From a virus, in the IMG/VR virus record IMGVR_UViG_3300027734_000099, positions 1 through 53,198 of that record: 53,198 nt of DNA. One strand, written 5' to 3'. The notes under the pieces were generated by a model, which was not told the origin of the DNA, did no database searches, and saw only the letters and a program-made list of their open reading frames with translations. Every line of letters begins with the position of its first letter. Position 1 is the first letter of the stretch. A program made the translations under genes and the position numbers. Below, in pieces: positions 1,128-50,084 of this stretch.

Positions 1128-2723
1128 TTAAGAAAAAAATGGAGAAGCACTAACTTCTACCGTCGGCATAACCATATCCTGAGTCATAGCGCAGGCGATG
1201 GCTAAAGAGTCCACAAAGTCGTCGTGGGCGTGGGCTTCATCAGGGGCAGCCACTAAAAAGTTTGGCCCCTTGTATTGGACTTCAGCATCCGTCATTTGTT
1301 GGTAAAACTTCTTCCAAAGACGTAAACGACGTGTTTTTGCATGGGCTGGCCAAGAAACCATCTGTCGTTGAATTAAAGCTTGTAGGTGTTTCCAACGTTT
1401 AGATTGCTCTGTTGGACTTGAGGTAATAGGAACTACTTCAGCTCTAGGCATTAAAACTTTGAGTCGGCCTGCTACAGCATCTCCAACACCGTTGGAGTCC
1501 ACCCCAATTGCTAAGACGTCGTAGTTCCCAAGGAAGTTAACAATCTGGAAGTATTGCTCTTCCCAGTCATCTCCTTGGATCTCAAGCCAGTTTAAAATAC
1601 GATGGTCGTAATAGCCAAACTCATCAGGACGATCCCAGTCAACCCACACAACAGTAACAACCGTAGAGTCCATTTTTCTAGCGGGGTCAATACCAACAAC
1701 GACGGGAGATCTATGCCAACTTTTAACAAGCTCTTGGGAAGTATCACCAAGATCATCCATAATCGTTGAAGTGACGAACATGCCTCTTTCAAGAAGCCAC
1801 TTACAGTTGTAAGACATTTGGAATTCATCTGAGTCTTCTCCTACTCGTAACATTTCTTTTTTAATAAACTTTTCGTAGTTATCGTTAAACTTAGCTACAT
1901 CTCGCCAATCCCATTGAAAGTGGTTCTGTTTTGCAGAACGTCCAGTTTGCCTACGCTTGTTTAGTTGGATAGCTCTGTAAAAGTTATTTTTAGATGTAGT
2001 AGGGGTTCCGGTCTTTACAATAGTTGCGTTGTAGTAAGCACCCATAGGAGAAATAGACTTAGATACCACAAAGTCATCTGCTTCTTGACACTCATCAATA
2101 ATGATTAGGTGGAAAGACTTAGATTCAATTTTTGCGCGAGGGTTGGCTGTCATCATCATTAGCGTAGATCCTGAGTTCTTTAGCTTGATGTTACGCACAA
2201 CTCCAGGAGTTTTAGTAGCCATATCGTCTATCTCTGGATCACCCAGTACCTCAAGAGCTCGTTCACTAGTTAAACGTGAAACTGTTCTTCCGTACAAAGT
2301 TTCTACCTGTGACTGAATAGGTGCAAACATTCCCACCCAAATACCATCACCAAACTTACCTAGTAGATCTGGATACATCTTTGCAAGGCGAGGAAGGATA
2401 ACCATTAAGGTAGCTACAGTGTTAGCAATTGTCTCTGATTTACCTGACTGACGAGAAGCAAGAGCAGTTACTTCTTCGCCGTCGTTAATGATTACAGACT
2501 CAATAATGCGTCTAGCAAGCGGCTCTTGATATGCGTGAAGCTTATGCCCTACAAGCATTTCCATGAAGGCCATGATCTTGTCTATTAGGGCTTTAACAAA
2601 CTCTTTAGAGAGTTCGTCTAATTCATCAGGTACTTCCTCAGAAAATTCGTCGTCTTCTTGATCTAACTCATCCTCTACATAAAGCTCTTCAAATTGATCT
2701 TCGTTGTACTCAAAATCATCCAT
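1128..2723 (-). CDS. Terminase large subunit
   Basis: 531 residues, a normal TerL length. TerL is the motor ATPase and nuclease that cuts concatemeric phage DNA and pumps it into the prohead through the portal. The first ~40 residues are an acidic tail. The Walker A variant ASRQSGKS lies near residue 90 and Walker B LIIIDECQEAD near residue 205. The C-terminal RNase H-like nuclease shows the expected acidic residues in VGIDPARKMDS, IGVDSNGVGD and HDDFVDSLAIA. The start overlaps the upstream gene by 8 bases and has no clear ribosome site, so translational coupling is likely. The portal gene follows on the same strand. Confidence 0.95.
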   Translation of the reverse strand: MDDFEYNEDQFEELYVEDELDQEDDEFSEEVPDELDELSKEFVKALIDKIMAFMEMLVGHKLHAYQEPLARRIIESVIINDGEEVTALASRQSGKSETIANTVATLMVILPRLAKMYPDLLGKFGDGIWVGMFAPIQSQVETLYGRTVSRLTSERALEVLGDPEIDDMATKTPGVVRNIKLKNSGSTLMMMTANPRAKIESKSFHLIIIDECQEADDFVVSKSISPMGAYYNATIVKTGTPTTSKNNFYRAIQLNKRRQTGRSAKQNHFQWDWRDVAKFNDNYEKFIKKEMLRVGEDSDEFQMSYNCKWLLERGMFVTSTIMDDLGDTSQELVKSWHRSPVVVGIDPARKMDSTVVTVVWVDWDRPDEFGYYDHRILNWLEIQGDDWEEQYFQIVNFLGNYDVLAIGVDSNGVGDAVAGRLKVLMPRAEVVPITSSPTEQSKRWKHLQALIQRQMVSWPAHAKTRRLRLWKKFYQQMTDAEVQYKGPNFLVAAPDEAHAHDDFVDSLAIACAMTQDMVMPTVEVSASPFFS

Positions 2724-5228: not shown

Positions 5229-7259
5229 TTAGTCAGCTTTCTTCTTTGGTCCGACTTTTAGTCTGTCCAAAACAGAGTCAGCTGATTCTTCTGTCTCAAA
5301 GTCTTTATTATTTGGTTGCTTACCAAATGGTTGCTTTGCAGCACCCTGTAAAGTCTTAGAGGTTTCAGAGATTGGCTGTGTTGTTCCGGCCATGTAGAAA
5401 GCGTTGCTACGACCTTCTTTAACTTCAAAGTCTGGGAATAGGCTTAGTTGTTCCATAGGCTTAGGGGCGGCTGCTCTATCTTTCTTAGCCTTACCCTTTC
5501 CACCAGGACGTACAGCAAGTTCTTTTCCAGCACTCTTCTGAGAAGCTAAGCTACCTTGAGCTGCAAGAGCTTTGACTTCTTGAGCACCAGTCATCTCTGT
5601 AGTATCGATAGCAAACTGTTGACCTCGGTTTGATTCTGGTTTCCAATTACGATCTGTTGGTTCGTATCTAGAAATGCGATTAACTTCATCTGCAACTTTA
5701 ATTCTAGGTGCCATTTCTTCTTCAGTCCAAGGCTTTGATTGCTTACTTGCCTTCTGACCAATTTTTTCTGTCTGACTCTTAGAAAGTGGACCCTCTAGAC
5801 GTTGATACTTAGCAGGAGAAACCTGTTCAATTACAGGCTTTGGTACACCAGTTCCTGGAAGTACGGGTTGTGAGAACTGAGCTCCCTTACCTGTACTTGT
5901 AAATGTTGGAAGGTCTGTTGGTGGTTTTGAACCAACGAGGACTTCGCCCTTCTTAGCCTTAGGTGGGTACGGAGCTGCATCTGCTCGTGGTCCTCTAGGA
6001 GCCTTTGGCACAAGTATTGGTGCGGTATCTTCAACGTTTGTTGGTGTGTATCGATACTTCTTATCTGCAGGCTGAGTGCTAGAACCATGAGGACGTGTTG
6101 CGGCCTTTGGACGAGAGCTAACTGCAGGTGTTGTACTTCTTGCAACTTTTTTCTTACCAATTTGCTTCATTCCACGAGGAACTAAGCCGCTTACTGTATT
6201 AGCAATTTCTGTTGCAATATCTCCACCACGCTTACGAGAAGCCTTTGATGGACCATGCTCACTTAACATCTCTACACGCATGTGGTCTACAAGATCAATT
6301 CCAGCAGCTGGAGTGTATTGACGGTAAACAGTTTTTCCACCGGCAACCTTCATTGAGTCCCAGCCCTCATGTGAGCGAGTTACTACTGGCTTTCCTTGAA
6401 CATCTCTTGTTACACGTGCAACTTTTCCTTTTGTACGAGTAAACGCAGATGGCATGTCTGGGTGATTTGCAGCAACAGGAATTAGTTCCTTAGTGCTTGG
6501 ATGTTCCCAAAGTGCACCTTCTTTAGGTGTGTGAGTAATTTGACGCTTAGAGTCTTCGTGCTCTTGTGCAATCTTATGCAAACCATGTACGTAAGTCTCA
6601 AGACGCTGACCAGATTGTGAAGCAGCGTTCTTGTACACCTCTTCATCAGCAATACCAAAGGTATGCATAACCTTTGCTAAACGGTGATGATGTCCACCAA
6701 ATACGCTTAAAGGAGTTGCAGGAGAATCAGTTGGGCTAACACCATTAACAGTTTTACCTGTGCGTGCAGCGATCTCACGGTCACGAGTGTGTAGTGCAAC
6801 AGCACGGTCTAAGTGACCCTGTTCTTCTCCAGGAAGTCCCATACCAGACTTCATACGATCAATAAGATTGATTGCTACATCTGGCTTATCTGTTACGTTA
6901 ACAGACGCAGGTACTGCACCACCTTCAGGACGTGAAGGTAGTTTTCCAAAATCAAGTACTGTAGTTTTGTTTACGCGGCCGGTACCTACATTGCCAGCAG
7001 CTGCACGTGCTTCTTGCCCTGGAGTAATCTCTTCAATGTTTGGCTTAGAACGTAGAGGATCTGCAACAGCAGGTGCATCCTTAGGGGCGGAGGTACTTGA
7101 AGGCAAACCTTCCATGCGCTCAGCATTTCCTGCTTGAATACTCTCGTTACTAGCGTCTTTAGCTTGAGCAACAATTACTTCATCTGCTCTTTGTGAAATC
7201 TTTTTTAAACCTTCTTTAGCTGCACCTGCGCTAGGAATGTTACGAGTATCTTTAGCCAT
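5229..7259 (-). CDS. Large low-complexity virion-operon protein
   Basis: 676 residues, basic, Ala/Lys/Pro/Ser-rich and probably largely disordered at both ends. The most ordered part is about residues 150-345, His-rich (FGGHHHRLAKVMHTFGIADE) and ending in a segment around GKTVYRQYTPAAG. Residues 604-608 are QLSLF, the consensus beta-clamp-binding pentapeptide, in a Pro-flanked tail. GGAGG precedes the ATG by 9 bases. It sits between small virion-type genes, so an internal head or tail-associated protein is plausible. Not recognised as a known family. Confidence 0.75.
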   Translation of the reverse strand: MAKDTRNIPSAGAAKEGLKKISQRADEVIVAQAKDASNESIQAGNAERMEGLPSSTSAPKDAPAVADPLRSKPNIEEITPGQEARAAAGNVGTGRVNKTTVLDFGKLPSRPEGGAVPASVNVTDKPDVAINLIDRMKSGMGLPGEEQGHLDRAVALHTRDREIAARTGKTVNGVSPTDSPATPLSVFGGHHHRLAKVMHTFGIADEEVYKNAASQSGQRLETYVHGLHKIAQEHEDSKRQITHTPKEGALWEHPSTKELIPVAANHPDMPSAFTRTKGKVARVTRDVQGKPVVTRSHEGWDSMKVAGGKTVYRQYTPAAGIDLVDHMRVEMLSEHGPSKASRKRGGDIATEIANTVSGLVPRGMKQIGKKKVARSTTPAVSSRPKAATRPHGSSTQPADKKYRYTPTNVEDTAPILVPKAPRGPRADAAPYPPKAKKGEVLVGSKPPTDLPTFTSTGKGAQFSQPVLPGTGVPKPVIEQVSPAKYQRLEGPLSKSQTEKIGQKASKQSKPWTEEEMAPRIKVADEVNRISRYEPTDRNWKPESNRGQQFAIDTTEMTGAQEVKALAAQGSLASQKSAGKELAVRPGGKGKAKKDRAAAPKPMEQLSLFPDFEVKEGRSNAFYMAGTTQPISETSKTLQGAAKQPFGKQPNNKDFETEESADSVLDRLKVGPKKKAD

Positions 7260-7780
7260 TAGTAAGTGCCTCCACCTTTTGTAGGACGTGCACGACGTGG
7301 TGACTTAGTTGATGGTGGCTTAGGTGCTGCAGCACTTCCTGAAGAACGACCAGTTTTTGAAGTAGCACGTGATGTAGTTGGGGTTCCTGTTTCAGGTGTA
7401 CCAACCCCTGTTTGTGATCCAAGAGCACGATCTGCCAAACCTTTTTTCTGAAATGAAATTCCTGTTGCGCTTGACTGTGTTACGTCACTTAGATCAGCGC
7501 CTTCTTTTTTGTAGAAACGGGCGCGACTCTTTTCACGCTTAAACCCTGTGTTACCAAGATAATCTTTAGCTGCGGCATCTACAACAGCTTTGTGTGTAGC
7601 ACGTTCCTTAATATGTTCAGTGTCTATCTTTGCACGCTCTCCGTGCAACTCTAGTTGAAGCTGTGCCATTGAGCGGGCACGGTATTGATCGCCAATACCT
7701 CCAAATAACTTACCAATCCAATTTCCTGTTCCTCCACTACGGGGAGCAACAAAGCCCTGGTTATTCTGTGGTGCTGGCAT
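7259..7780 (-). CDS. Basic low-complexity hypothetical protein
   Basis: 173 residues. The N-terminal Gly-rich part (NWIGKLFGGIGDQYRARSM) leads into a long charged helix with LQLELHGERAKIDTEHIKER, followed by a Ser/Thr/Pro/Lys-rich tail ending RPTKGGGTY. Its stop is coupled to the start of the next gene. The composition is like that of the neighbouring 676-residue protein, and both may be packaged with DNA. No family recognised. Confidence 0.65.
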   Translation of the reverse strand: MPAPQNNQGFVAPRSGGTGNWIGKLFGGIGDQYRARSMAQLQLELHGERAKIDTEHIKERATHKAVVDAAAKDYLGNTGFKREKSRARFYKKEGADLSDVTQSSATGISFQKKGLADRALGSQTGVGTPETGTPTTSRATSKTGRSSGSAAAPKPPSTKSPRRARPTKGGGTY

Positions 7781-7801
7781 AATAAGGATCCGTTCCTTTG
7801 T

Positions 7802-8002
7802 TTAGATTAATATCATTTTAACTAGTGCGCCTGTTTTTGTAAGCGCATCTGCTTGTTCGTTATAGTGATGGGCGCAGAATGTTAAGACGCCTGTTGCAAA
7901 AAAGGCGCCAAATTGTGCTCTAGCAGAGCACTGGTCACATTGCTCCCGAACCCCCACCGTCAGAAGCTGTAGCTCCTGTTGATCCTCCAACATCTCCGCC
8001 AT
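7802..8002 (-). CDS. Small zinc-binding protein resembling DUF7455
   Basis: 66 residues from MAEMLEDQQELQLL, with AGGAG seven bases upstream. The core CDQCSARAQFGAFF then FCAHHYNEQADAL matches the pattern of small actinobacterial DUF7455 proteins (CxxC followed by C-x-H-H), likely one zinc ion. The first 68 bases overlap the 3' end of the preceding gene in another reading frame, an unusually long overlap here. The start could lie further 3', but the ribosome site favours this one. Confidence 0.65.
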   Translation of the reverse strand: MAEMLEDQQELQLLTVGVREQCDQCSARAQFGAFFATGVLTFCAHHYNEQADALTKTGALVKMILI

Positions 8003-8204
8003 AACCAGACTCCTGTCCAAAACCGTTTTGTGCGGTTTCATTTGGGCTATTATCGTTTCCAGGTGCAGTTCCTCCACCCCAAAACCCACCGTAGTAGATC
8101 TGGAACCAAGGAATTCCACCAACTGCGTAGCCACCGCCCAAGCGCCCCACTGTCTTGTGGTGCTTGTGCTTCTTAACCTTGAACTGTTTTTTATCTATGG
8201 CCAT
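7935..8204 (-). CDS. Gly-rich small basic protein
   Basis: 89 residues. The Lys/His-rich start (KKQFKVKKHKHHKTVGR) is followed by a Gly/Ser/Asn-rich, aromatic stretch (YYGGFWGGGTAPGND) of the kind seen in some virion proteins. The ATG at 8204 has only a weak ribosome site. Its last 68 bases also encode the start of the zinc protein in another frame. It follows the terminator at 8245-8266, so it may have its own promoter or depend on readthrough. Confidence 0.55.
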   Translation of the reverse strand: MAIDKKQFKVKKHKHHKTVGRLGGGYAVGGIPWFQIYYGGFWGGGTAPGNDNSPNETAQNGFGQESGYGGDVGGSTGATASDGGGSGAM

Positions 8205-8292: not shown

Positions 8293-9252
8293 TTATGAAG
8301 CTGCGTAAGGTGTGATTGTGATTGTTGCTGTTGTAGCCACAGATGCAGCGCCTGCTGCTGTTGACTGTGTCTTGATTGTGCTGAAACGTGCTGGGACCTT
8401 GGCTGTACCTGTATCTGCTGCTGAGGAAACGTTTCCTGTTGTCTTAGCGTAGGTAAAGGTAGTTGCTGTAGGTACTGTTGCAATTGCAACAAGTGTTGCA
8501 GCAAGTGTTGTAGCTGTAACTGGTGCAACTGTAACAAGGTCACCAACTGCAAAGCCGTGAGCTGCTGCTGTGGTAATTGTTGCTACGTTGCTTGTAAGGG
8601 CTACGTTAGAGATAGCTGGGGTTACTGCTGAAGCTGTTGTGATGTTAGCTGCTTCGTAACCAGCATCCTTAAGTGTGTCAAGGGCTACTGTTGTTGTTTG
8701 TCCAACTACGTTAGGTACTTGAATGTAACCAAGACCATAACCATCAGCTGCTGTACGAGCTGTTGTCTTTTCTACTTTGCCGTACCACTGTCCTGTAATT
8801 TCACCAGCGTTAGCTGCGTTAGTTACTGTGAACTTAAGTGGAGTTGCTGTAGCAACTGTTGCTGCTGAAAGGTTGTAAGCTGAAGCTGTAAGGCCAGTAA
8901 TGTTTACTGAATCTCCAGCTGCAAGTTTATTTTGTGATGTGTATGTAACAGTTGTTCCGTTACCTGAAGCTGCAGTAACCATATAGTTACCTGCTGCTTC
9001 TACGAATGAAGGGAAGTTAGCCCAATCTGCTTCAATGTCTGAGTGATTTCCAAGTGACGCGTTTAGACGTGCGCTTGGATTCTTTGAGTATCCAGACCAG
9101 CTCTTGTTCTGTGCTGCATTGTTTGCAACTACTTCAACAGCTGTGCCGTCTGTGCGCTCATCATTTGGTTGTGGAGCAAAGTTGCCCCATACAAAATCTA
9201 CGGCAATGTTGCCGGAGGAATCAAGTAGATTCCCGTTGTTATTTACTGCCAT
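8293..9252 (-). CDS. Structural protein with PASTA-like and Ig-like repeats
   Basis: 319 residues, extremely Ala/Thr/Val-rich and poor in charge, as in phage tail or decoration proteins. The first 90 residues are polar (VDFVWGNFAPQPNDERTDG). Beta-rich segments follow, and VPNVVGQTTTVALDTLKDAG matches the PASTA domain, which binds peptidoglycan stem peptides or mediates protein contacts. The C-terminal 110 residues are another beta unit built around AAAHGFAVGDLVTV. GAGGAAATAAAAA precedes the ATG. A virion surface or tail role with affinity for the host wall is inferred. The gene lies just after the proteasome-like gene. Confidence 0.72.
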   Translation of the reverse strand: MAVNNNGNLLDSSGNIAVDFVWGNFAPQPNDERTDGTAVEVVANNAAQNKSWSGYSKNPSARLNASLGNHSDIEADWANFPSFVEAAGNYMVTAASGNGTTVTYTSQNKLAAGDSVNITGLTASAYNLSAATVATATPLKFTVTNAANAGEITGQWYGKVEKTTARTAADGYGLGYIQVPNVVGQTTTVALDTLKDAGYEAANITTASAVTPAISNVALTSNVATITTAAAHGFAVGDLVTVAPVTATTLAATLVAIATVPTATTFTYAKTTGNVSSAADTGTAKVPARFSTIKTQSTAAGAASVATTATITITPYAAS

Positions 9253-9312: not shown

Positions 9313-9879
9313 TTAAGCTTCTTGTATGTATGTATGGATCTCTCCACCAGAATAGATGTCGTGCTTACAGGCGATCTCGATTGCTCGTCTCACAACCTTT
9401 TCGGCGGACTCGGGTGTACTGATTTTTGCATAGTTCAAAGCCTCAAGTGCGCCCAGTGCAACATCTCCACCACTACCAGCATAGTAAACGCGGCGGGCTT
9501 CTCTATCCCAAGAGTAGTCATTAAAGATCGGGTAAATTACACCGCGGATAGATACAAGCAAGTTAGAGTCTTGCCATGCTGCATCGCCATCTTCTTTACC
9601 TTCAAAGCCTGCATCCTGGAAAGCTTTACGCATTGAGGGAATAAACTTCTTAGTCATAAATGTATCTAAATCAATAGTTGCACCTGGCTTTGGAGGTTTC
9701 CAACCAAATTGCGTAATGTTTCCACCTCTAGAAGCGCCGGAGACAGCTATCAGTACACCGTTGTTATTAACAATCTTAGAAGTGGCAAGTTCCATATAGC
9801 GACCATCTTCATCGGAGGCGCGGGAATCACAACCAATAACGGACCAGCCATCACCTTGAATTGCAACAAGCGTTGTCAT
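9313..9879 (-). CDS. 20S proteasome beta-subunit / HslV-like N-terminal-nucleophile hydrolase
   Basis: 188 residues. After removal of Met the chain begins TTLVAIQGDGWSVIG, as in mature proteasome beta and HslV, so Thr2 is the likely nucleophile and there is no propeptide. Asp18 (CDSRAS), Lys35 (TSKIV), Ser136 (AGSGGDVALGALEAL) and the Asp174/Ser177 pair (HDIYSGG) match the catalytic set T1, D17, K33, S129, D166 and S169 of the 20S beta subunit. Family members are self-compartmentalised threonine proteases. AAGGGG precedes the ATG. It lies among virion genes, so a maturation protease or a modifier of the host proteasome are the two obvious roles; neither is shown by sequence. Confidence 0.85.
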   Translation of the reverse strand: MTTLVAIQGDGWSVIGCDSRASDEDGRYMELATSKIVNNNGVLIAVSGASRGGNITQFGWKPPKPGATIDLDTFMTKKFIPSMRKAFQDAGFEGKEDGDAAWQDSNLLVSIRGVIYPIFNDYSWDREARRVYYAGSGGDVALGALEALNYAKISTPESAEKVVRRAIEIACKHDIYSGGEIHTYIQEA

Positions 9880-9915
9880 GGGACCCCTTCGATTGGTAAG
9901 ACAATAATAGCCTAC

Positions 9916-10395
9916 CTACTGACCAGCACCCAACTGAAACTCCTCTGGCCTTTTTCGGGGAAGGTTTTGGTATGTAGTCTTACTCCAAGGAGCTCCATCT
10001 AGGTATAGCTCGATAAAATCGTGGGTGGAGTCTGAATTCTTTAGGACATCCCATAGGAGAGGGTCAACTCCATCGTATTGGATCATGGAGCCGTCTCTCA
10101 TGCCTATGACTAGGACTTCCATCTCCTTGTCTAGGGAGTAGCAGGCGTACACAGCTCTGTGGCGTGTCTTGCCTGGACTCTGAGGAGCATCAATGTATTC
10201 ATACCCAGGGCCACACGGACTTGTAGATGACATAGAGGTCATCCGAGCTTCCCGTCCTTCTGGTGTGCTTAGCTCCTCAGGCTCTCCAAATACCTTCTCA
10301 CGGCCTCTTAGAGACAGGTTGAGACGTTTGTTAGTCTCATCCTCATAGGCTTGTCTAAGGCGGTCTAAATCCCGTCCTACGCCGTCTCTAGCCAT
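9916..10395 (-). CDS. KTSC-like domain protein
   Basis: 159 residues. The N-terminal half is charged and helical (RLRQAYEDETNKRLNLSLRG). The C-terminal half has LVIGMRDGSMIQYDGVDPLL, then NSDSTHDFIELYLDG. This resembles the KTSC domain (hydrophobic strand, small-residue turn, aromatic-rich strand, then a helix and Ser-containing loop), which occurs alone or fused in phage and lysyl-tRNA-synthetase-related proteins with an unclear binding role. It overlaps the small upstream zinc gene by 8 bases and is followed by the proteasome-like gene. Confidence 0.65.
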   Translation of the reverse strand: MARDGVGRDLDRLRQAYEDETNKRLNLSLRGREKVFGEPEELSTPEGREARMTSMSSTSPCGPGYEYIDAPQSPGKTRHRAVYACYSLDKEMEVLVIGMRDGSMIQYDGVDPLLWDVLKNSDSTHDFIELYLDGAPWSKTTYQNLPRKRPEEFQLGAGQ

Positions 10396-10562: not shown

Positions 10563-11267
10563 TTAGGAGTAGTCCTTTTTAGTCCAATGCTTTAATTTAT
10601 ATGCTCCTCCACCCGAATCTATAGCATCTTCTCGCAAACTGTTCTGATTCCCCCTTAAATCATTATTTACTTTAATTTCCCACTCATGACGCTTGATAGG
10701 TATCACCTGTAGATATGGAGTTCCCTTAGGAATGATCCCCTCAAATCCTGTACTTACGCAAAATAAAGCTGATCCTGGTGCTGCAAAGGCATCTGTGTCT
10801 ACTAACCCTGAAAAAGTTATAAATGGTAGATCCGGCCTGTTAAGAGGATGAGTAATTAGAGCGCTATACCCTTCCGGAGTTTTAATTCCCCAAGGAACAT
10901 TCCAAGCAAAAGACCATTCCGAATAACCATTTATACGTTGTAACCCAAGTGAAACAGATGATGACCGCACCTCAAGAGGCCACAACTCTGAATTCCAACT
11001 TAAATCTGGTACAAAACCAGTTTCAACCTCTACCTGCATAATTTTAATATCACACCAAGTAGTCAACATATACCCAGCTGTCATGGCGTCTAGATACGGA
11101 ATGCATGCTTTTGCTGTAAGAGTGTCTCGTGTTTTATTTAAATTATCGCTATGCCTAGGTATTTCCTTGTACCAATCTGGAATTGTCCTTGAAGAGGGTA
11201 CTGGAGATGGTATTACCCGATTAATTGTGTTTGAAGGTGAATAGGTTTCAACAGTTAGTTTGTCCAT
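10563..11267 (-). CDS. DUF6065-like protein, copy 1
   Basis: 234 residues. The block TPEGYSALITHPLNRPDLPF, a VDTDAF step, then FEGIIPKGTPYLQVIPIKRH is the signature I associate with DUF6065 proteins of large phages. Function unknown. The protein at 49374-50084 carries the same blocks (GYSLLFTHPLNRMDLPF, FEGIIEKGTPIVQIIPIKRD), so the genome holds two diverged copies. It is the first gene of the leftward virion block and faces the repeat-rich region at 11341-11442. Soluble; Trp- and Pro-rich. Confidence 0.72.
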   Translation of the reverse strand: MDKLTVETYSPSNTINRVIPSPVPSSRTIPDWYKEIPRHSDNLNKTRDTLTAKACIPYLDAMTAGYMLTTWCDIKIMQVEVETGFVPDLSWNSELWPLEVRSSSVSLGLQRINGYSEWSFAWNVPWGIKTPEGYSALITHPLNRPDLPFITFSGLVDTDAFAAPGSALFCVSTGFEGIIPKGTPYLQVIPIKRHEWEIKVNNDLRGNQNSLREDAIDSGGGAYKLKHWTKKDYS

Positions 11268-17470: not shown

Positions 17471-17546
17471 GTTTCCTTAACAAATAGTTAGGGAATGTCA
17501 TAGCAATATGACAAACGATTCCATTACCAAAGAAGGGGTAAAAGCT

Positions 17547-18989
17547 ATGGATATCGCTGTATTCACGGAGTCATATGAACCAACTATGGGGGCAAATCGC
17601 CGTCAGGTTCTAATCACTCCACATGATGGAAATGTACGTATCTATTCACGTAACACAGACGGGACTAAAGGCCCTCACAATAAGTGGGAGGAAACAGACC
17701 TAGATAGTATTACTGGAGAGATATCTACAGGTGAGTCATTAACACGAACACCAGTTGCTGTGTACGTTACAGCAGCAGATGAGCGTGCAATGACTAGCAA
17801 AGGCTATTCCCCAGTCCTTGGCACCAAGGCATGTCAGGCACATACAAAAGCAACAGCTAACACTGACGCAACATCATTCGTAGATCGTATTTGCGAACTG
17901 TATGAAGCAGTAAGTAATGGTGATGATTCGCTTGAAGAATATGTAATTGACAATCGTCGTATGCCAGGCTCGCCTGTTCCAATGGGTGTTGTTCCAACAC
18001 AAACAATCCCCGCACCAACCATCACACCAGTCACAGAGACAGTTGTTCCTACAACCTCTGCACAACAAGGAGCAGTGATTAACGCAGCGCTTGCTTCAGT
18101 GCCACGCATTGAACTTGCTAAGCGTTATGTGCATAGAGATATCTGGTCCCGTCAGGACTTTGAAATCTTTGACCATGCACGTTCACAGAACATCAACGTC
18201 CTTATCTACGGCCCAACCGGCCCAGGTAAGACTACATCTGTTGAAGCATGGGCTGCTGAACGCGGCTTACGCATGGCAACAGTATCTGGTAACGCTTCAA
18301 TGGAGCCAAGCCAGATGACTGGTAAATATGTATCTGATGGCAATGGTTCATTTGCATGGATCGATGGCCCAGTTACAGACGTTGTTCGCAATGGTGGCGT
18401 CTTATTGCTCGATGAGGTTAACTTCATCAGCCCTAAGATTTACACAGTTCTATATTCATTGCTAGATGGTCGTCGTAACATTACGTTGCTAGACCACCAC
18501 GGTGAGACTATTGAGGCTAATAAAGACCTCACTATCTTTGCCACAATGAATCCAGATTACATTGGCACAACACCGCTCAACTTTGCATTCCGCAATCGCT
18601 TTGATATCCAAATCCCATGGGATTACGATGACAAAGTGGAGGCTAAGTTGGTTACATCTAAAGCCTTGCTAGTAGTTGCTAAACAACTTCGCGTTGAAGC
18701 AGGCAAAGGTCAGTATGAAACACCAATCTCAACTAACATGCTTCAGGAGTTTGTCAACTTTGTTGATGCTCTTGGTTATGAGTTTGCAGTTGAGAACTTT
18801 ATCGCTCACTTCTCTGCTGACGAAGCAGCAAGTGTGCGTCTTGTATTCCAGACACACGAGCACAATATCAAGACTGACTTTGGTATTGAGATTCCTATTG
18901 TCGTGGAAGAACAACCTGAAGGTAAATCACCTGAAGAACAACTTATGGAGTGGGCTGGACAATACGCTTCCCATAATGGCGTTATCTAA
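17547..18989 (+). CDS. MoxR-type AAA ATPase
   Basis: 480 residues. I place the start at the ATG at 17547 (MDIAVFTESYEP) because AAGAAGGGG precedes it; an in-frame ATG at 17508 has no site. The N-terminal 180 residues are variable with a Pro/Thr linker. The AAA core follows: Walker A GPTGPGKTTS near residue 220, Walker B VLLLDEVNFI near 286, sensor FATMNPDYIG and an arginine-rich segment AFRNRFDI. MoxR ATPases act as metal-ion-insertion or complex-assembly chaperones, usually with a VWA partner. The VWA gene lies 11 bases downstream, so the two should form one system. Confidence 0.88.
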   Translation: MDIAVFTESYEPTMGANRRQVLITPHDGNVRIYSRNTDGTKGPHNKWEETDLDSITGEISTGESLTRTPVAVYVTAADERAMTSKGYSPVLGTKACQAHTKATANTDATSFVDRICELYEAVSNGDDSLEEYVIDNRRMPGSPVPMGVVPTQTIPAPTITPVTETVVPTTSAQQGAVINAALASVPRIELAKRYVHRDIWSRQDFEIFDHARSQNINVLIYGPTGPGKTTSVEAWAAERGLRMATVSGNASMEPSQMTGKYVSDGNGSFAWIDGPVTDVVRNGGVLLLDEVNFISPKIYTVLYSLLDGRRNITLLDHHGETIEANKDLTIFATMNPDYIGTTPLNFAFRNRFDIQIPWDYDDKVEAKLVTSKALLVVAKQLRVEAGKGQYETPISTNMLQEFVNFVDALGYEFAVENFIAHFSADEAASVRLVFQTHEHNIKTDFGIEIPIVVEEQPEGKSPEEQLMEWAGQYASHNGVI

Positions 18990-19000
18990 GAAAGGTAACC

Positions 19001-20905
19001 ATGTATCAAGAACAGCTGGAAGATAACAGCTATTACGGAGAAGCCAGAGATGAGGATACACAAGAACGTGCTATCCGACTCAATGCTCTTTGTCGTGTCT
19101 ATGAACAGGCCGACAGAGTATTAACTGGCGACCCCGTGCTAGTGCACGTTATGCCTGATGGCCCCGCACCAGCGTGGTCTGATGGCGCAGCCATCTATAT
19201 CAATGTTAATGAAATTCAAGACATTGATTTAGAAACATTGACGCAGGTGAACGGCTTGAACTATCACGAGCTGTGTCATCACTTGTATACGCCTCGCAAA
19301 GGCACAACCTTAGTCCAATGGATTCAAGAGCAAAACTACTTCCAAGCGTTTAATATCTTGGAGGACCAACGCATCGAGACTCTATTCGTAGCAAGGTATC
19401 CATCAATATCACCATACCTAACAGCAACAGTTGCTCGTTGGCTTGGTGGTTCTGAAGACACAGGCGGTAACTACCTCTGCATTCGTGGTCGTCGTTATTT
19501 ACCTGTGGATATTAGGCAAGCATTCAGAGATGAATTTGCATTTCCTGAGCTAATTCCTAATATCATTGACATCGTAGACAAGTATCGTTTGCTGGCTTTC
19601 CCCAAAGATTATGAAACAGCAAAAGTATTAGTCGAACGACTCCACAAAGAAGTTCTAGTTCCAATGGGACTAGATGGACAATCATTCGGTGGCGGTCCTA
19701 ATGGATGTGGAGATCGTGCCCCAGTAGGTAAAGGTCGTCCTGAACCTGGCAAGGCACAAGAGAAAGATGCTGCACGTGCTTGCGGTATGGGAACTAAAGA
19801 ATCTACTTTTATTCCTAAACCTAAACAATCAGAGCCATCTAATAATGATGGCAATAGTGCAGGCAACACTCCAACACAAACAAACGACGGCTCCGGCCCA
19901 TACATACCACAAAGCACACAAGAGGCTCTAGATATTAGAGACCAACATGTGAACACACCAACATCACCAACAGCAGGAACTGGCCATGTAAAAAGCATGG
20001 GTGGTGTTCCTAACCATATCGATGACATGTTGAATGACGCTATCAATGAAGTGCTTGATCGTAAAGATGTTCAAGCCGACATTAAAGCCAAGCAACGTGT
20101 AATCGTGGGCGGTGATGGTAAACACGAAGATGTCACCAAGCGTGGCAAATTCAGCAGCACATCTGTGCCACAAGAAGCAATCATTAACTATCGTAAGTTC
20201 GCTAAAGAACTACAACGGTTGCGTGATGATTCAGAACCAGCATGGTCTAAAGAAACTCCATCTGGTCGTCTTAACGTGCAGCGTGTAATCAGAGGCTGTG
20301 AGATTGACCAAGCCTTTGATCGTTGGGAGGAAGGCGATGATGGTTGCGATATTGAAGCAGTCATCCTTGTCGATCGTTCCGGCTCAATGTCTAGTGGACA
20401 GAATGATAAGAAAGCATCTATTGCATGCTGGACTATCAAACGAGCACTAGAACACATTCAAGCACCGGTAACAGTCTATGCATTTGATGACCAAGCCGAA
20501 GTTGCTTACACCCGCACCGAACATGCTCACAAAACTGAGTATAAGTTCATCTATGGCAATGGTGGAACAGAACCGTATCCAGCATTGCTAGCCGCTGAAC
20601 AGCTTCTCATGTCTTCTCGTAAGAAGAACAAAATGCTGTTTATAGTTACTGATGGTGTGTTCAACACAAACAAAAATGACGAGCTAATTGAGCGTATCTC
20701 ACGCCGTGGGATTCTTACTGCAATGACCCTCATCATGAACGACAAAGAGTTCAAATACTATGTGGAAGATAGCAATCAACTAACCCTTGAAGGCTTAAAG
20801 CACAAGTCTGAAGTCTTTGGTCGAATCAGTAATGCCCAAGACCTGCTTCCCTTTGCACGACAGGTTGTTACATCTGCAATCCGCAAACGATCAAGAATAC
20901 GTTAG
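19001..20905 (+). CDS. VWA-domain protein with HExxH motif
   Basis: 634 residues. Near residues 87-95 YHELCHHLYT contains HExxH, a zinc-metallopeptidase-type motif. The centre is a long Gly/Pro/Asn-rich linker (about 230-330), and the C-terminal third is a VWA domain with the metal-site motif LVDRSGSMSSG near residue 457, followed by a conserved YAFDD and a FIVTDGVF strand. Such proteins (CobT, CoxE or DUF2201-VWA types) work with MoxR or CobS ATPases. AAAGGTAACC precedes the ATG. Catalytic activity of the HExxH part is unproven. Part of the same operon as the ATPase. Confidence 0.85.
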   Translation: MYQEQLEDNSYYGEARDEDTQERAIRLNALCRVYEQADRVLTGDPVLVHVMPDGPAPAWSDGAAIYINVNEIQDIDLETLTQVNGLNYHELCHHLYTPRKGTTLVQWIQEQNYFQAFNILEDQRIETLFVARYPSISPYLTATVARWLGGSEDTGGNYLCIRGRRYLPVDIRQAFRDEFAFPELIPNIIDIVDKYRLLAFPKDYETAKVLVERLHKEVLVPMGLDGQSFGGGPNGCGDRAPVGKGRPEPGKAQEKDAARACGMGTKESTFIPKPKQSEPSNNDGNSAGNTPTQTNDGSGPYIPQSTQEALDIRDQHVNTPTSPTAGTGHVKSMGGVPNHIDDMLNDAINEVLDRKDVQADIKAKQRVIVGGDGKHEDVTKRGKFSSTSVPQEAIINYRKFAKELQRLRDDSEPAWSKETPSGRLNVQRVIRGCEIDQAFDRWEEGDDGCDIEAVILVDRSGSMSSGQNDKKASIACWTIKRALEHIQAPVTVYAFDDQAEVAYTRTEHAHKTEYKFIYGNGGTEPYPALLAAEQLLMSSRKKNKMLFIVTDGVFNTNKNDELIERISRRGILTAMTLIMNDKEFKYYVEDSNQLTLEGLKHKSEVFGRISNAQDLLPFARQVVTSAIRKRSRIR

Positions 20906-28267: not shown

Positions 28268-29135
28268 GGATTCTCCTTATCAGTGTGTCGGTATCTGGTA
28301 ACTCTATGCCATAAGTCTGAAGTTGTTGCTGCTTATCTGCTTCTGTTTTTGTATCTTTTATTGCTCTTAATGCTTGAATAGCGCCAGAACGCTTGCCGGC
28401 TTGCCACCTATAATTATTGAAGTCTGAGTATCCACCGCCAATTTTGCTAAAAGCAATCTTTCTTCCGGCGTGGATATCATCAAAAAATGTAGCTGCTTGG
28501 TCAGTCGCTAACTTTAGTCTGCGCTCTGCGTTCAATCTATGAGCAGGGTTAGTTGCTCCCCTTACCTCTGCTAAAGCATCGGAGTACCGGCTAACAAGTT
28601 CTTTTGCCATCTCGTGGTCTCTGTTTGCTTTTTGTTCCCAAGCACGACTGTATGGTGGTTCTGGGTTCTTATCTGGCTGCACAGTCCAGATATCACCAAT
28701 TAAGTCATAGGCTGCGTATGGGTTGATATCTCTAATATCTGATTGCTCGTTAACGTAGTACGTTAATTCATAACCTTCCCAGTTACGGGTCTTTGGCATA
28801 AGTTCTTTGTTAAATCCTTCGTTTAGTAACGACGCAATTTCTTGATTTGAAAACCCTGCGTACTCAGTGTTGGTTTGTCTAAAAAGAACATAGTTAATTC
28901 CAACTAAACAATCTAAGTCTCCTGGTTCCCGTGCAGCTTCCCACTGGTAAGAAACTCCAGATCCGGCAAGCCAAGCTTTAGTCCAGGTGTGCGGCGAAAC
29001 AAAATGTTGTGCTAAATAATCAAAGAGCATTGATAGTACGCCAGTGCGAACCCACGGTTTTAGACCCTCATTATCAAACAGCTTTGGATCTAGCTGTTCT
29101 GAAGGCCTACTGAAGTAGGAGGTGGCAATGGTCAT
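28260..29135 (-). CDS. Nucleotidyltransferase-fold protein
   Basis: 291 residues. AWLAGSGVSYQW (Gly58-Ser59) followed by EPGDLDCLVG (Asp73, Asp75) is the hG[GS]...DhD signature of Pol-beta-type nucleotidyltransferases, which transfer a nucleotide to RNA, protein or small molecules. The long rest is helical (ALAEVRGATNPAHRLNAERR) and unrecognised. AGGACT precedes the ATG. The substrate is unknown. It is the first gene after the terminator at 29152-29185 in the leftward direction. Confidence 0.62.
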   Translation of the reverse strand: MTIATSYFSRPSEQLDPKLFDNEGLKPWVRTGVLSMLFDYLAQHFVSPHTWTKAWLAGSGVSYQWEAAREPGDLDCLVGINYVLFRQTNTEYAGFSNQEIASLLNEGFNKELMPKTRNWEGYELTYYVNEQSDIRDINPYAAYDLIGDIWTVQPDKNPEPPYSRAWEQKANRDHEMAKELVSRYSDALAEVRGATNPAHRLNAERRLKLATDQAATFFDDIHAGRKIAFSKIGGGYSDFNNYRWQAGKRSGAIQALRAIKDTKTEADKQQQLQTYGIELPDTDTLIRRIHG

Positions 29136-29151
29136 AGTCCTATTCTTTCAT

Positions 29152-29185
29152 AACAAAACAAAAGGCAGGCCCCTAAAGGCCTGCC
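29152..29185 (-). terminator. Rho-independent terminator
   Basis: GGCAGGCC, loop CCCTAA-like, GGCCTGCC (29164-29185), followed on the minus strand by TTTTGTTTTG. It ends the transcript that includes the gene at 29202-29525, before the nucleotidyltransferase-fold gene. Confidence 0.88.
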
Positions 29186-29201
29186 CGTTGTTAAATTATG
29201 C

Positions 29202-29525
29202 TTACTTATCTTCAGATTGCTTCTTCATTTCTAGGGCTTCTAGACGAGCAATTGTGTACTCAGCGGCTGCTTGAGCTTGAAGGTCAGCAAGAATTTCAGA
29301 TGCATAGCGGCGAACCTCTAGCAAAGTAATTTCCTGTTCAATGGGCATAGTAAACAGATCTTTGTTGCGTTCAACAAATACGTGGCCATCGACATCAATC
29401 AAAACTGCAAAGGCAGTCTTAATCTTTGGATTTTCAAATTGTGCTTCAGGACTTAGGGTTTCAAAAACCTCTTCTGTTGCTTCGTTTACTGGACGGTCTT
29501 CTGACACGGGTTTCTCCTTATTCAT
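29202..29525 (-). CDS. Hypothetical acidic protein
   Basis: 107 residues. The first 30 are acidic and disordered; then a short beta unit (FAVLIDVDGHVFVERN) and a long helix with ARLEALEMKKQ follow. No Cys or membrane segment. It is coupled to the gene before it by an 8-base overlap and is the last gene before a strong terminator. Its position is virion-like, but no family is recognised. Confidence 0.62.
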   Translation of the reverse strand: MNKEKPVSEDRPVNEATEEVFETLSPEAQFENPKIKTAFAVLIDVDGHVFVERNKDLFTMPIEQEITLLEVRRYASEILADLQAQAAAEYTIARLEALEMKKQSEDK

Positions 29526-30099
29526 ACATTCCAGCGGCCTTGCGCTGCTGGGTTACTACGTGGGACTTAACAGGACAAAAATCACAAAGAAACACGTTAG
29601 TGCCTGCTGACTTAGCAGCCGACATCAAACCTGCTTCTTTACGAAGTTCAGCGGTGTTCTTTGGAACAAGCCGCTTGTTCTTTGCTCGCCAATCATGGCA
29701 GCCTTCTTTTGGTCGAAGGTGCTCACTATAGCACTTCATGGCGTCGTCATAGAACGTTGCCTTAGTAGTGTAATAGTCTGGGTCAATATCTGCAAGACCT
29801 CCACCGACCTTGTTACGTAAATTCTGAATAACTTGCTTCTTGACCTCAGGACGTGAGTAAAGCTTTACTCCGATCTTAGATAGGAATCCGTTGTGAGGAA
29901 TACCAGCAGACTCGTGTTTTTCAACAAGGATCTGCAAAGTTACGTCATCATCTGGGTGACCTTCAAAGTCAGGAAGTTCTTCAATTGTTTTACAATTGTA
30001 ACAATACAACAAACGAATTTTAGGACCATCGTCCTTAATCTCTGTGTATGTTCCTTGATCAGCGGGTTGTCCACCCTGACCTAAAATAGGCAATGACAT
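29518..30099 (-). CDS. Zinc-binding hypothetical protein
   Basis: 193 residues from the ATG at 30099, which has GGAGGATAAT upstream. LLYCYNCKTIEELPDF near residue 35 and FLCDFCPVKSHVVTQQR near the C-terminus give two CxxC pairs, about 140 residues apart, plausibly one zinc site. The middle contains a helical region around KKQVIQNLRNKVGGG and a Cys/His-bearing KEGCHDW. Unrecognised. It starts the run that ends with the 29152-29185 terminator. Confidence 0.62.
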   Translation of the reverse strand: MSLPILGQGGQPADQGTYTEIKDDGPKIRLLYCYNCKTIEELPDFEGHPDDDVTLQILVEKHESAGIPHNGFLSKIGVKLYSRPEVKKQVIQNLRNKVGGGLADIDPDYYTTKATFYDDAMKCYSEHLRPKEGCHDWRAKNKRLVPKNTAELRKEAGLMSAAKSAGTNVFLCDFCPVKSHVVTQQRKAAGMYE

Positions 30100-42758: not shown

Positions 42759-43644
42759 CAATACTCTCCTTATAAGGCTCACACCGTTTACATCCGGCTA
42801 CGGGGTCAATATTACACACAGGTGGTCGGTTGTTGTCAACTGCCCAAGCAATGTCCAAGGCTTGATCAAACAGCTCCTTGGTAAACTCTGGGTTGTATTT
42901 GACAGTAAACTCTTTATAATCTTGGTTAGCTTTAAGCTCATAGATAAATACGATCTCTTCTGGTGCAGACGGAAGATCTCCGTTCTCAACCATTAGATGA
43001 GTTAAGTGCAGGTAAACCTGACCCTGTAATTGATGGGCACGAAACGGCGCACGAATATTGCGCCAAGCTTTTTCTAAATCACCATCAGACTGAGCTAACA
43101 AAGCCGGAGCCTCAAAGCGAAGTGTTCCAGCACCAATAGACTTAATCTCAATAAGGCAGTCTTCTCCCAATGTTTTAACCCAACCATCTGAGTGACCACC
43201 AATCTTGTGCTTGTCACTCCACAGAGGAACTTCACGGTATTCAAAAACCCCACACTCTGGGTCATCAAAATTTAAATCAGAAGCAAGTTCCCAATCTGAA
43301 GGTCCACACTCCGAGCACTCCCACTTACCGTAAAGCACGCCCATTTCTGTAAGCCACTTCTGCCACTTAGCGTGGATCGTGTGCCCCTCATCAAAGATAG
43401 ATTGAAGACGAAGAGTAGGCTTTTCACGCACCTCTTTGTAGTTACCTTTAATTGCATGGTACTGGGCAAGATGACACCACTCAGGTTTAATCATGTCAGA
43501 TGGGTGAATAATATCCATGCGACGATTATCAAAAGGCTTAGATAACAAGTGGCGCTCAATAGCGCCCATTAAACGAGTATCTCGTTTAGTTGCGTCTAAG
43601 AATGCTTTTAAAGAAATCGCCTTAGGCTTGCCCGTATTTGCCAT
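42751..43644 (-). CDS. Cas4/RecB-like PD-(D/E)XK nuclease
   Basis: 297 residues. HIGGHSDG-like KIGGHSDGWVKTLGEDC, then CLIEIKSIG and AHQLQGQVYLHL give the Asp, Glu-x-Lys and Gln/Tyr of RecB-family nucleases. Cys residues near residue 60 and the C-terminal CNIDPVAGCKRCEPY suggest a Cas4-type iron-sulfur cluster. It probably resects DNA ends in recombination. It overlaps the WhiB gene (23 bases) and the FmdB gene. CRISPR elements are absent, so a phage-repair role is more likely than adaptation. Confidence 0.75.
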   Translation of the reverse strand: MANTGKPKAISLKAFLDATKRDTRLMGAIERHLLSKPFDNRRMDIIHPSDMIKPEWCHLAQYHAIKGNYKEVREKPTLRLQSIFDEGHTIHAKWQKWLTEMGVLYGKWECSECGPSDWELASDLNFDDPECGVFEYREVPLWSDKHKIGGHSDGWVKTLGEDCLIEIKSIGAGTLRFEAPALLAQSDGDLEKAWRNIRAPFRAHQLQGQVYLHLTHLMVENGDLPSAPEEIVFIYELKANQDYKEFTVKYNPEFTKELFDQALDIAWAVDNNRPPVCNIDPVAGCKRCEPYKESIDA

Positions 43645-43951
43645 CCTGGTCTATCCATTCTTCTAGTGTTAAACCTTGTTTTTCATACTTACGCTTTGCT
43701 GCATTTCTTTCTCTGTGTGACATGCCACCAAAGATTCCATGCAACTCATCGTTTATGATAGCTTCTTTAAGACATTCTTTGCGAACTGGACAAGCTGGTC
43801 GCCCATCCTTTCCCCAACAGATTGCTTTAGCTTTATCTGCTATCGGTTTGTATAAAGCTTTATCTCTTGGTGGGAAAAATATCTCTGTATCTTCCCCTCG
43901 GCATTTAGCCCTGTATCTCCAAGCCCATGTAGGCTCGTCGTCATATTCCAT
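43622..43951 (-). CDS. WhiB-family transcription regulator
   Basis: 109 residues. Cys17, Cys45, Cys54 and Cys60 are the four ligands expected for a [4Fe-4S] cluster, and HGIFGGMSHRERNAAKR is the GVWGG-type turn followed by a basic DNA-binding part. WhiB proteins occur in Actinobacteria and their phages, where they bind the main sigma factor and reprogram transcription. Spacing between Cys45 and Cys54 is eight residues, whereas two is usual. AGGGGTGACTAA precedes the ATG. Its gene lies between two nuclease genes in the replication block. Confidence 0.85.
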   Translation of the reverse strand: MEYDDEPTWAWRYRAKCRGEDTEIFFPPRDKALYKPIADKAKAICWGKDGRPACPVRKECLKEAIINDELHGIFGGMSHRERNAAKRKYEKQGLTLEEWIDQDGKYGQA

Positions 43952-48916: not shown

Positions 48917-49381
48917 TTAAGTTGTTTCTTGAGAGTGAATCTTAGTCCACTTTTCCATCAATTCAATTGATAGATCAGGATGTCGATTCCAGTCAATCCT
49001 AGGGGCTTCAAGAAGTCCCCGAGACTGAAAACTCTCGATAGTTGCTTCGACAATTGCTTTGCTGTACATCCGCCATCCGGGCTTCTTTACACCATTAACA
49101 ATCATTGACTTTAAGCGATAGGGTGCACGCGGTATATAACCTTTTCGTTCCCAAAGCCTCAAAGTAACTAACGGTCTGCCTAACGCAAGAGCCATAGCTC
49201 CTGCGCTAAACAATTCTAGCACCTTTCCGTTTGGTAATGCTTTGACTTGTGGGTCAGCATTCCAAGCGGTTGGTGTAGAAACTGTACGTGGTTTTGCATT
49301 TGGATCTGGTTCACGACGTTTGCGTTTAGAGCCAGGGTAGTAATCATCCAGGCTCTTAAACAACTTGTCAACTTCATCCAT
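48917..49381 (-). CDS. MerR/excisionase-like HTH protein
   Basis: 154 residues from MDEVDKLFKSLDDYYPG; this ATG at 49381 overlaps the 3' end of the DUF6065-like gene. ELFSAGAMALALGRPLVTLR, LWERKGYIPRAPYRLK and YSKAIVEATIESFQ look like a winged-helix MerR-type DNA-binding part. The preceding linker is basic (GSKRKRREPDPNAKP). It might regulate transcription or bind DNA architecture. There is no integrase nearby, so excision is unlikely. Confidence 0.65.
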   Translation of the reverse strand: MDEVDKLFKSLDDYYPGSKRKRREPDPNAKPRTVSTPTAWNADPQVKALPNGKVLELFSAGAMALALGRPLVTLRLWERKGYIPRAPYRLKSMIVNGVKKPGWRMYSKAIVEATIESFQSRGLLEAPRIDWNRHPDLSIELMEKWTKIHSQETT

Positions 49382-50084
49382 AGTTTTTTTTTGTCCAAAA
49401 ATTCTTTTTATAGGACCGATAAATAGTTTGAGCAAACTTATTGTACCTAAGTATAGAGTCTTTTTTAGAAAACTCAAGTTGCTTTCTAGACCAGCTGTCT
49501 CGTTTGATTGGAATTATTTGAACTATTGGAGTTCCTTTTTCAATAATTCCTTCAAAGCCTTTTCTTATATAAAAAGGAAAATCAACTGACATTGGGTGGG
49601 AATCAGCGTCTACTATCCCACTCAGGGTTTGAAAAGGAAGATCCATCCTATTTAAAGGATGAGTAAACAGAAGGCTGTAACCAGGAGGCGTTTCAATTAC
49701 AACATTGTTTAAAAATTTATACGCCACATTTACATAGTCTTCTGAAACAGGAAACCCTTGAGTTTGAACGGTTGGGTGGTTAGCCACCATCTCTTCTTCT
49801 ACGCGCCACTTAAACTCTGGATAGCCGTGAATGTTATTGGAAACCTCAACATCCGCAGATAAAGTAAGCATGTACCCTGCAGAAAAAGAATCAAGAACAG
49901 GCTGACACCATTTCATAGTTGCCATAGAACCCTTGCTAGCCATGTCTAAAGTAACTTTGTCGTGACCAGGCAGCATGTGCCTCATATCTTTAAACCATTT
50001 TGGTATGCTAGAAATTGCAGGGGTTGGAAACGGCTCAGTAACACTGGATACAAGTGTTTGAGGTATAAGTTTTAGTGTTTTCAC
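49374..50084 (-). CDS. DUF6065-like protein, copy 2
   Basis: 236 residues. Shares GYSLLFTHPLNRMDLPF, FEGIIEKGTPIVQIIPIKRD and a similar N-terminal half (TPAISSIPKWFKDM) with the product of 10563-11267. In some large phages this family is near structural genes. Function unknown. The gene lies at the start of a small run with the MerR-like gene. Confidence 0.72.
   Translation of the reverse strand: MKTLKLIPQTLVSSVTEPFPTPAISSIPKWFKDMRHMLPGHDKVTLDMASKGSMATMKWCQPVLDSFSAGYMLTLSADVEVSNNIHGYPEFKWRVEEEMVANHPTVQTQGFPVSEDYVNVAYKFLNNVVIETPPGYSLLFTHPLNRMDLPFQTLSGIVDADSHPMSVDFPFYIRKGFEGIIEKGTPIVQIIPIKRDSWSRKQLEFSKKDSILRYNKFAQTIYRSYKKNFWTKKNYG

Follow-up and report, generated by a model that had tools for sequence, protein, structure and literature searches.

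The window analysed here, the whole 53,198-nt stretch of the viral record IMGVR_UViG_3300027734_000099, carries on its minus strand a gene for a 188-residue protein related to HslV and to the betaproteobacterial proteasome homologue BPH. We consider it probable, at roughly 55%, that this protein is a group I self-compartmentalising threonine protease without an unfoldase of its own, acting as a mobile late helper that trims or clears a few proteins, and not as a capsid protease. The parts of this explanation that were observed directly are the family, the fold, the catalytic residues, purifying selection, the lack of a propeptide, the failure to detect an HslU-type partner, movement of the gene between phages and its absence from G017, a relative with the same head module. 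The carrier is probably a virus of freshwater actinobacteria.

The open reading frame runs from 9879 down to 9313 on the minus strand, starting with ATG and encoding the N-terminus Met-Thr-Thr. Inspection of the sequence found no upstream in-frame alternative start. The features of the gene are listed below, with conservation given for 54 distinct relatives and for a sister lineage named after phage E7.

9313 to 9879, minus strand: coding sequence of the 188-residue HslV/BPH-like N-terminal-nucleophile (threonine) hydrolase, assigned from Pfam, PHROG and Foldseek matches and from 54 distinct relatives with the catalytic set
9884 to 9890, minus strand: Shine-Dalgarno motif GAAGGGG before the ATG, read directly from the sequence, with similar purine-rich motifs at the same place in the relatives shown
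9874 to 9876, minus strand: codon of T2, equivalent to the catalytic Thr1, directly after Met1 with no propeptide; invariant in 54/54 distinct relatives and 54/54 of the E7 lineage
9826 to 9828, minus strand: codon of D18, equivalent to Asp17; invariant in the 54 relatives and the E7 lineage
9775 to 9777, minus strand: codon of K35, equivalent to Lys33; invariant in the 54 relatives and the E7 lineage
9472 to 9474, minus strand: codon of S136, equivalent to Ser129, in a GSGG motif; invariant in the close family, Ser or Thr in the E7 lineage
9358 to 9360, minus strand: codon of D174, equivalent to Asp166; invariant in the 54 relatives, Asp, Asn, Ser or Thr in the E7 lineage
9349 to 9351, minus strand: codon of S177, equivalent to Ser169; Ser in 52/54 and Thr in 2/54
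9562 to 9612, minus strand: residues 90-106 (AGFEGKEDGDAAWQDSN), putative equivalent of an acidic pore loop, assigned by position

A sequence-only reading of this DNA had proposed a phage-encoded proteasome-beta-like threonine hydrolase with a complete catalytic set, and family, fold and residues all support that proposal. The six catalytic residues that it named (T2, D18, K35, S136, D174 and S177) lie at the positions it gave them, and its claim of a Thr without a propeptide agrees with Met standing directly before Thr2 and no in-frame start upstream. With the mature Thr as residue 1, the Lys is number 34 and not 33, since in the alignment its preceding loop has one residue more than that of HslV. 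The Met-Thr-Thr start is common to all 54 relatives, and their ribosome-binding sites are strong. As an established rule methionine aminopeptidase removes Met before small second residues, and the host enzyme would in this way expose Thr2.

Well beyond what chance would give, the protein matched the Pfam proteasome family (PF00227, E=2.5e-8) and PHROG 1040, 'peptidase HslV family', over residues 1-186 (E=6.3e-25). Its sequence matches in the PDB were 20S beta subunits, with the C-terminal third fitting best to beta5 and beta8. An AlphaFold2 model built with 44 relatives (mean pLDDT 78.5, pTM 0.78) was of middling quality, with residues 22-32 and 98-103 below a pLDDT of 50 and two good models out of five. 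A Foldseek search of the PDB with this model returned BPH first (E=8.4e-10, TM about 0.7), followed by 20S beta5 and HslV (E about 1e-9 to 1e-8), and a viral library returned phage HslV-like proteins with E values to 3e-18. The predicted fold is the alpha-beta-beta-alpha fold of Ntn hydrolases; structure prediction and fold search, which had been suggested as a check, yielded no other.

Across the 54 distinct relatives, which extend to 34% identity, T2, D18, K35, G48, G135-S136-G137 and D174 are invariant, so that the nucleophile Thr and the Lys, whose retention the earlier reading had asked about, are kept in every one. G48, the equivalent of the oxyanion Gly47, is also invariant in all 54 sequences of the E7 lineage, like T2, D18 and K35. 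The median dN/dS against the window protein is 0.09 in the close family, and residues 90-106 have a net charge of -4 in 51/51 distinct close relatives. Such conservation together with low dN/dS is the signature expected of an active enzyme and not of a decaying or decoy protein.

Proteins of this kind are already known, and the actinophage set is a variant of them. The whole protein matches the PHROG 1040 profile, whose name is a homology label and whose members lack HslU. Fuchs, Alva and Lupas described the AAH and PPH proteins as group I proteasome homologues of phages and their hosts (PMC8665760); the earlier suggestion of a 'new type' was overstated, as these phage-borne homologues were published in 2021. 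The window protease is like AAH and PPH in its branch of the family, its kind of carrier, its lack of a propeptide and the lack of a detected AAA+ partner. PPH proteins have about 140 residues and no second helix H2 (PMC8665760), whereas the window protein has 188 residues and helices are predicted at both 51-57 and 71-89, before the pore loop. Fuchs et al. found no actinobacterial phage with an AAH (PMC8665760); unlike in that survey, relatives of the window protease are encoded at hundreds of loci in actinophage contigs of the WhiB type. Presumed AAH proteins encoded on rhizobial, Streptomyces and Bacillus plasmids group apart in a clade of their own (support 0.986) and lack the Asp166 equivalent that the window protease keeps; it is their fit to the published AAH distribution (PMC8665760) that suggests the label.

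BPH (PDB 5ovs, 5ovt and 5ovu) is the best structural match and shares an acidic pore-loop region and the lack of a partner unfoldase, but it is cellular and not viral, and identity in the structural alignment is 17-19%. BPH assembles as a double ring of 14 subunits with a long acidic loop in the pore region, and epoxomicin attaches to it covalently; no unfoldase is known for it, and its authors' assays detected no protein-degrading activity (PMC5777263). Residues 90-106 of the window protein would be the positional counterpart of that loop. With HslV (ClpQ) of HslVU the window protease shares the fold, the Met-Thr-Thr start, Thr1/Asp17/Lys33 and the GSGG motif. HslV differs in having an HslU partner, which was not found in the carriers, and in lacking, in the alignment, two residues of the 20S beta catalytic set that the window protease has, D174 and S177. 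Against the NCBIfam HslV equivalog models the window protein scored 21.7 bits (cut-off 137) and 21.3 bits (cut-off 157.75). The full T1/D17/K33/S129/D166/S169 set is common to it and 20S beta subunits, but the window protease has no propeptide, alpha subunit or H5 extension. It scores nowhere near the equivalog cut-offs for archaeal beta and HslV and is missed by the bacterial 20S beta (PrcB) model TIGR03690; within the family its matches are on the HslV/BPH side. It is the only proteasome-family gene in the window, and its relative G001 likewise has only one.

The assignment of the window to a phage of Actinobacteria is supported by one gene.

43622 to 43951: gene for a WhiB-family regulator (PF02467, E=7e-18)

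WhiB genes characterise actinobacteria and the phages that infect them (PMC10611076, PMC10202952), and we therefore infer an actinobacterial host. The main texts of three papers on freshwater actinophages (PMC6802176, PMC10611076, PMC10202952) make no mention of a proteasome or HslV gene, and papers on Cbk-like phages and on Alteromonas V22 merely list a 'proteasome' gene as accessory. One pattern scan of IMG/VR gave at least 586 confirmed stretches with a relative of the protease. Two scans with patterns from the phage set confirmed no close cellular homologue in 84,980 bacterial and archaeal genomes, the patterns being short ones that remote versions at 25-30% identity would escape; the close group is therefore seen only in phages. 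When eight diverse members were aligned, no stretch was sufficiently conserved for a pattern scan. Cellular relatives at 25-30% identity came from plasmid searches and lie on rhizobial, Streptomyces, Paraburkholderia and Bacillus plasmids. One of these genes, in Sinorhizobium fredii pSfreGR64b (L167:5001-5546), lies within a nif cluster, flanked by nifQ and iron-sulfur assembly genes.

The surroundings of the protease gene were compared among its carriers, starting from the following features of the window.

9916 to 10395, minus strand: upstream neighbour of the protease, with a weak KTSC-domain match (PF13619, E=3e-4, below the Pfam cut-off)
8293 to 9252, minus strand: downstream neighbour, a repeat-rich protein with a weak PASTA match (PF03793, E=3e-4, below the cut-off)
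1128 to 2723, minus strand: terminase large subunit (PF17289, E=2.6e-9), a late-region landmark and not part of the protease
29127 to 29520, no strand: interval equivalent to the type-B protease site, where an 87%-identical copy stands by a ribonucleotide reductase operon; placed by flanking matches, with no copy in the window

Type A comprises the relatives of the window of about 100 kb. Their usual minus-strand order is KTSC-like gene, protease, PASTA-like gene, genes for two long low-complexity proteins, terminase, portal, coiled-coil scaffold-like protein and major capsid protein (MCP). The KTSC-like gene is directly upstream of the protease in most of these loci, and the PASTA match of the counterpart in G001 exceeds the cut-off (PF03793, E=2.8e-5). 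In type B (L021, L042, L043, L045, L062 and L066) a copy 75-87% identical stands beside a ribonucleotide reductase operon, and the genes on either side of this copy match window positions 28272-29126 (56%) and 29521-30036 (34%). Around the protease of L021, itself 87% identical, four genes match the window at 34%, 56%, 53% and 81%. In type C (L031 to L037 and L041, one record being of 136 kb) an 85%-identical copy adjoins genes for a dual-specificity phosphatase, a histone-deacetylase-like protein and another terminase. At L031:10630-13827 and in other type-C loci the order is protease, then phosphatase and histone-deacetylase-like protein (PF00850, E=1.5e-52), then terminase. Apart from the protease, a 20-kb type-C locus matches the window only in a lysozyme-like gene (51%) and a CobS-like gene (30%). 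An 85-87% identical protease thus occurs in at least three unrelated neighbourhoods; the remaining genes there match at 30-81% identity or not at all. With the protease at about 85% identity while all else differs, we conclude that the gene has been exchanged between unrelated phages. In the window phage, where it heads the minus-strand, presumably late, block, it would serve as a helper that is widely retained and passed on horizontally. Elsewhere in the window, two similar proteins with phrog_7084 and DUF6065 matches are encoded far apart on the same strand (10563-11267 and 49374-50084).

An unfoldase of the HslU/ClpX type was sought through its ClpB_D2-small domain, and no match came from eight genomes that carry the protease, among them the complete ones of DSL-LC01 and Arthrobacter phage Hum25. 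The search control was positive in 12 of 14 genomes; the result covers phage genomes, and use of a host HslU is possible. Since no such unfoldase was found, the protease would either take unfolded or flexible segments directly or borrow a host ATPase. The former has been proposed for BPH.

Two other gene families near or in carriers were considered as partners. Hsp20 is encoded within five genes upstream of the protease in 23/68 loci, and directly upstream in L016 and L020. It was not found in G001, G011, G013 and most of the type-B and type-C records searched, and it is present in G017, which lacks the protease; this patchiness makes it an unreliable link and we rejected it. Many relatives encode this small heat-shock protein; its genes were seen at window positions 50577-51068, at L013:9069-9695 and in L016 and L020. 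A CobS-like AAA+ ATPase is encoded by the long type-A and type-C carriers tested and by DSL-LC01, and was not found in Hum25, in the partial type-B contigs or in G017. Such genes are common in phages. As an unfoldase for the protease it is suggestive at most and was set aside as not consistently linked, Hum25 carrying the protease without it; the small co-occurrence means that a phage-encoded partner is possible. In the window the CobS-like gene is paired with one for a VWA (CobT-like) protein (17508-20905), and this pair is missing together with the protease in G017. In two related records (G016:C1:79873-81264 and G040:C1:51969-53360) the CobS-like gene contains one in-frame TAA.

In phages of Vibrio, Geobacillus, Xanthomonas, Tunturiibacter, Psychrobacter, Moorella and Microbacterium, homologues lie in blocks of small, DNA-replication or nucleotide-metabolism genes. 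Such surroundings, of early, small, replication or nucleotide-metabolism genes, hold for most annotated phages outside the E7 lineage; the genes met there include thymidylate synthase, DHFR, exonuclease, DNA ligase, ThyX and deoxycytidylate deaminase, with WhiB as the neighbour in DSL-LC01. It would suit a protease made early to destroy particular host regulators or defence factors in favour of the phage, as would the movement of the gene between unrelated phages in the manner of an accessory gene. We nevertheless regard such a role as unlikely. In the window lineage the gene opens the minus-strand block leading toward the terminase and not the plus-strand block with the CobS/CobT-like genes, a self-compartmentalising protease without an unfoldase would be ill suited to folded host targets, and a defence gene in conserved linkage was not found.

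The case for a role in virion assembly comes mainly from a sister lineage. The public record OX376640 (L511), which has no annotation, is Planktophila phage LanE43AprE7 (E7), a 'Ca. Planktophila' phage and one of two cultivated phages of 'Ca. Nanopelagicales' (PMC10202952); E7 and F5 with strain LanE-43 form a cultivated phage-host pair. The E7 homologue is 31% identical to the window protease (PHROG 1040, E=4e-30). A gap of 17 nt separates its gene from that of the portal; the large terminase gene lies upstream of this pair, and the genes for a 158-residue scaffold-like protein and the MCP lie downstream. In the loci of this lineage, L511 (portal and protease at 5698-8036) and L512-L591, the portal is immediately upstream of the protease with a gap of 13-18 nt in 79/81 cases, down to about 42% identity to E7, and one of the two exceptions is a contig end. 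T1, D17 and K33 are invariant in 54/54 distinct sequences, with a dN/dS of 0.13. Peptidase_S78 was not found in E7 and eight relatives, and a Pfam scan of 40 E7 proteins recognised no other protease. The place behind the portal is the classical slot of a prohead protease, and the fixation of the gene there argues for a virion-assembly role at least in this lineage, although the portal-protease synteny of E7 would not by itself prove a head-protease function. Between the protease and the capsid genes of E7 lies a gene (L511:8727-14021) for a 1764-residue protein without a PHROG or Pfam match, with counterparts of 1500-1900 residues in E7 relatives; it may be an internal virion protein and a substrate of the protease.

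Extended to the whole family, this argument would make the protein a prohead or scaffold-clearing protease doing the work of S78, S14 or S49 enzymes, ancestrally near the portal as in E7-like phages and drifted away from the head block in the lineage of the window. The MCPs of E7 and G001 both belong to phrog_1357, and the window gene lies on the terminase strand, upstream of the terminase. To that extent the earlier description of a virion-region gene holds, but the distance of about 6.6 kb places the gene outside the portal-scaffold-capsid block. The head module of the window lineage has the arrangement portal-scaffold-MCP and includes no protease gene, the type-B copy stands beside ribonucleotide reductase, and encoding within the head module was found only in the E7 lineage. 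Nor is the protease retained with that module throughout. The near-complete relative G017 (97,993 bp) has the same head module, with an MCP 84%, a portal 70% and a terminase 80% identical, and gave no homologue with the family profile, PHROG 1040 or PF00227 over its 97,993 bp, a record that may miss an end; G021 has the head module and the PASTA-like gene but no protease before it or elsewhere in 47 kb. IMG/VR classes both records as linear. In G001 the match of the MCP to phrog_1357 begins at residue 19, and the MCP of E7 also shows no obvious N-terminal pro-domain; as the MCPs of both lineages align to the profile almost from their first residues, a cleavable N-terminal domain is not apparent. 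The search of related phages for a conventional prohead protease, recommended in the earlier reading, was positive in DSL-LC01, the annotated phage nearest to the window protease (41% identity). Capsid maturation proteases are annotated in this phage as genes of their own, and Peptidase_S78 also gave a match; they lie 26-28 kb from the HslV-like gene, which adjoins WhiB. Prohead proteases, Peptidase_S78 among them, resemble the protein only in the position seen in the E7 lineage; their fold and catalytic chemistry are unrelated, and the window-lineage gene is misplaced and dispensable by comparison.

The mobility of the 85-87% identical gene, its absence from G017, the DSL-LC01 proteases and the MCPs without an apparent pro-domain together make capsid maturation an unlikely function in the window phage, for which this part of the sequence-only reading is weak, and a virion-assembly role across the family is distinctly doubtful. 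For E7-like phages the idea survives as a tentative one: their proteasome-type threonine protease could be the head-assembly protease and the window gene a mobilised cousin with a related late function, which we think unlikely.

An Ntn hydrolase need not be a general protease: connectase, a monomeric ligase, belongs to the proteasome-like family, as do many members whose activity is unknown (PMC8665760). Connectase is marked by two helices inserted between strands S3 and S4, and no such insertion is evident in the model; in its compactness the sequence resembles HslV and BPH. We therefore regard a protein ligase, amidase or similar chemistry as improbable here. Least credible of all, and rejected for want of any supporting feature, is the earlier idea of a decoy or poison subunit entering a host 20S proteasome: the beta-subunit fold is predicted and Actinobacteria as a group often have a Pup-proteasome, but the bacterial 20S beta model missed the protein, its scores lie on the HslV/BPH side, strong purifying selection on the catalytic residues would point to an enzyme and not a dead decoy, and homologues occur in phages of Vibrio, Geobacillus and other hosts that generally lack a 20S proteasome.

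The Met-Thr start, the lack of an HslU/ClpX-type unfoldase in the carriers searched and the acidic putative pore-loop region, as in BPH, therefore favour a self-compartmentalising, unfoldase-free threonine protease. Within the proteasome family it would belong, as a phage representative, to the bacterial branch (group I) and work like HslV or BPH. Identical subunits would assemble into a closed single or double ring that encloses the active sites, and chains able to enter would have their peptide bonds cut by the Thr1/Asp17/Lys33 mechanism. In the productive phase of infection the protease would most likely trim or clear a limited set of proteins.

Phage-borne proteasome homologues have been listed before without an assigned function. 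To the earlier sets the present one adds very large numbers in freshwater actinophages, clear and repeated transfer of a nearly unchanged gene among unrelated phages, and a cultivated phage-host pair (E7 and F5 on LanE-43) with the homologue locked behind the portal. With a cultivable E7 in which the gene is fixed at that place, the use of a proteasome-type protease by a phage becomes directly testable. If the head-assembly reading of E7 were true, the proteasome fold would have been put to use in virus maturation and virion assembly.
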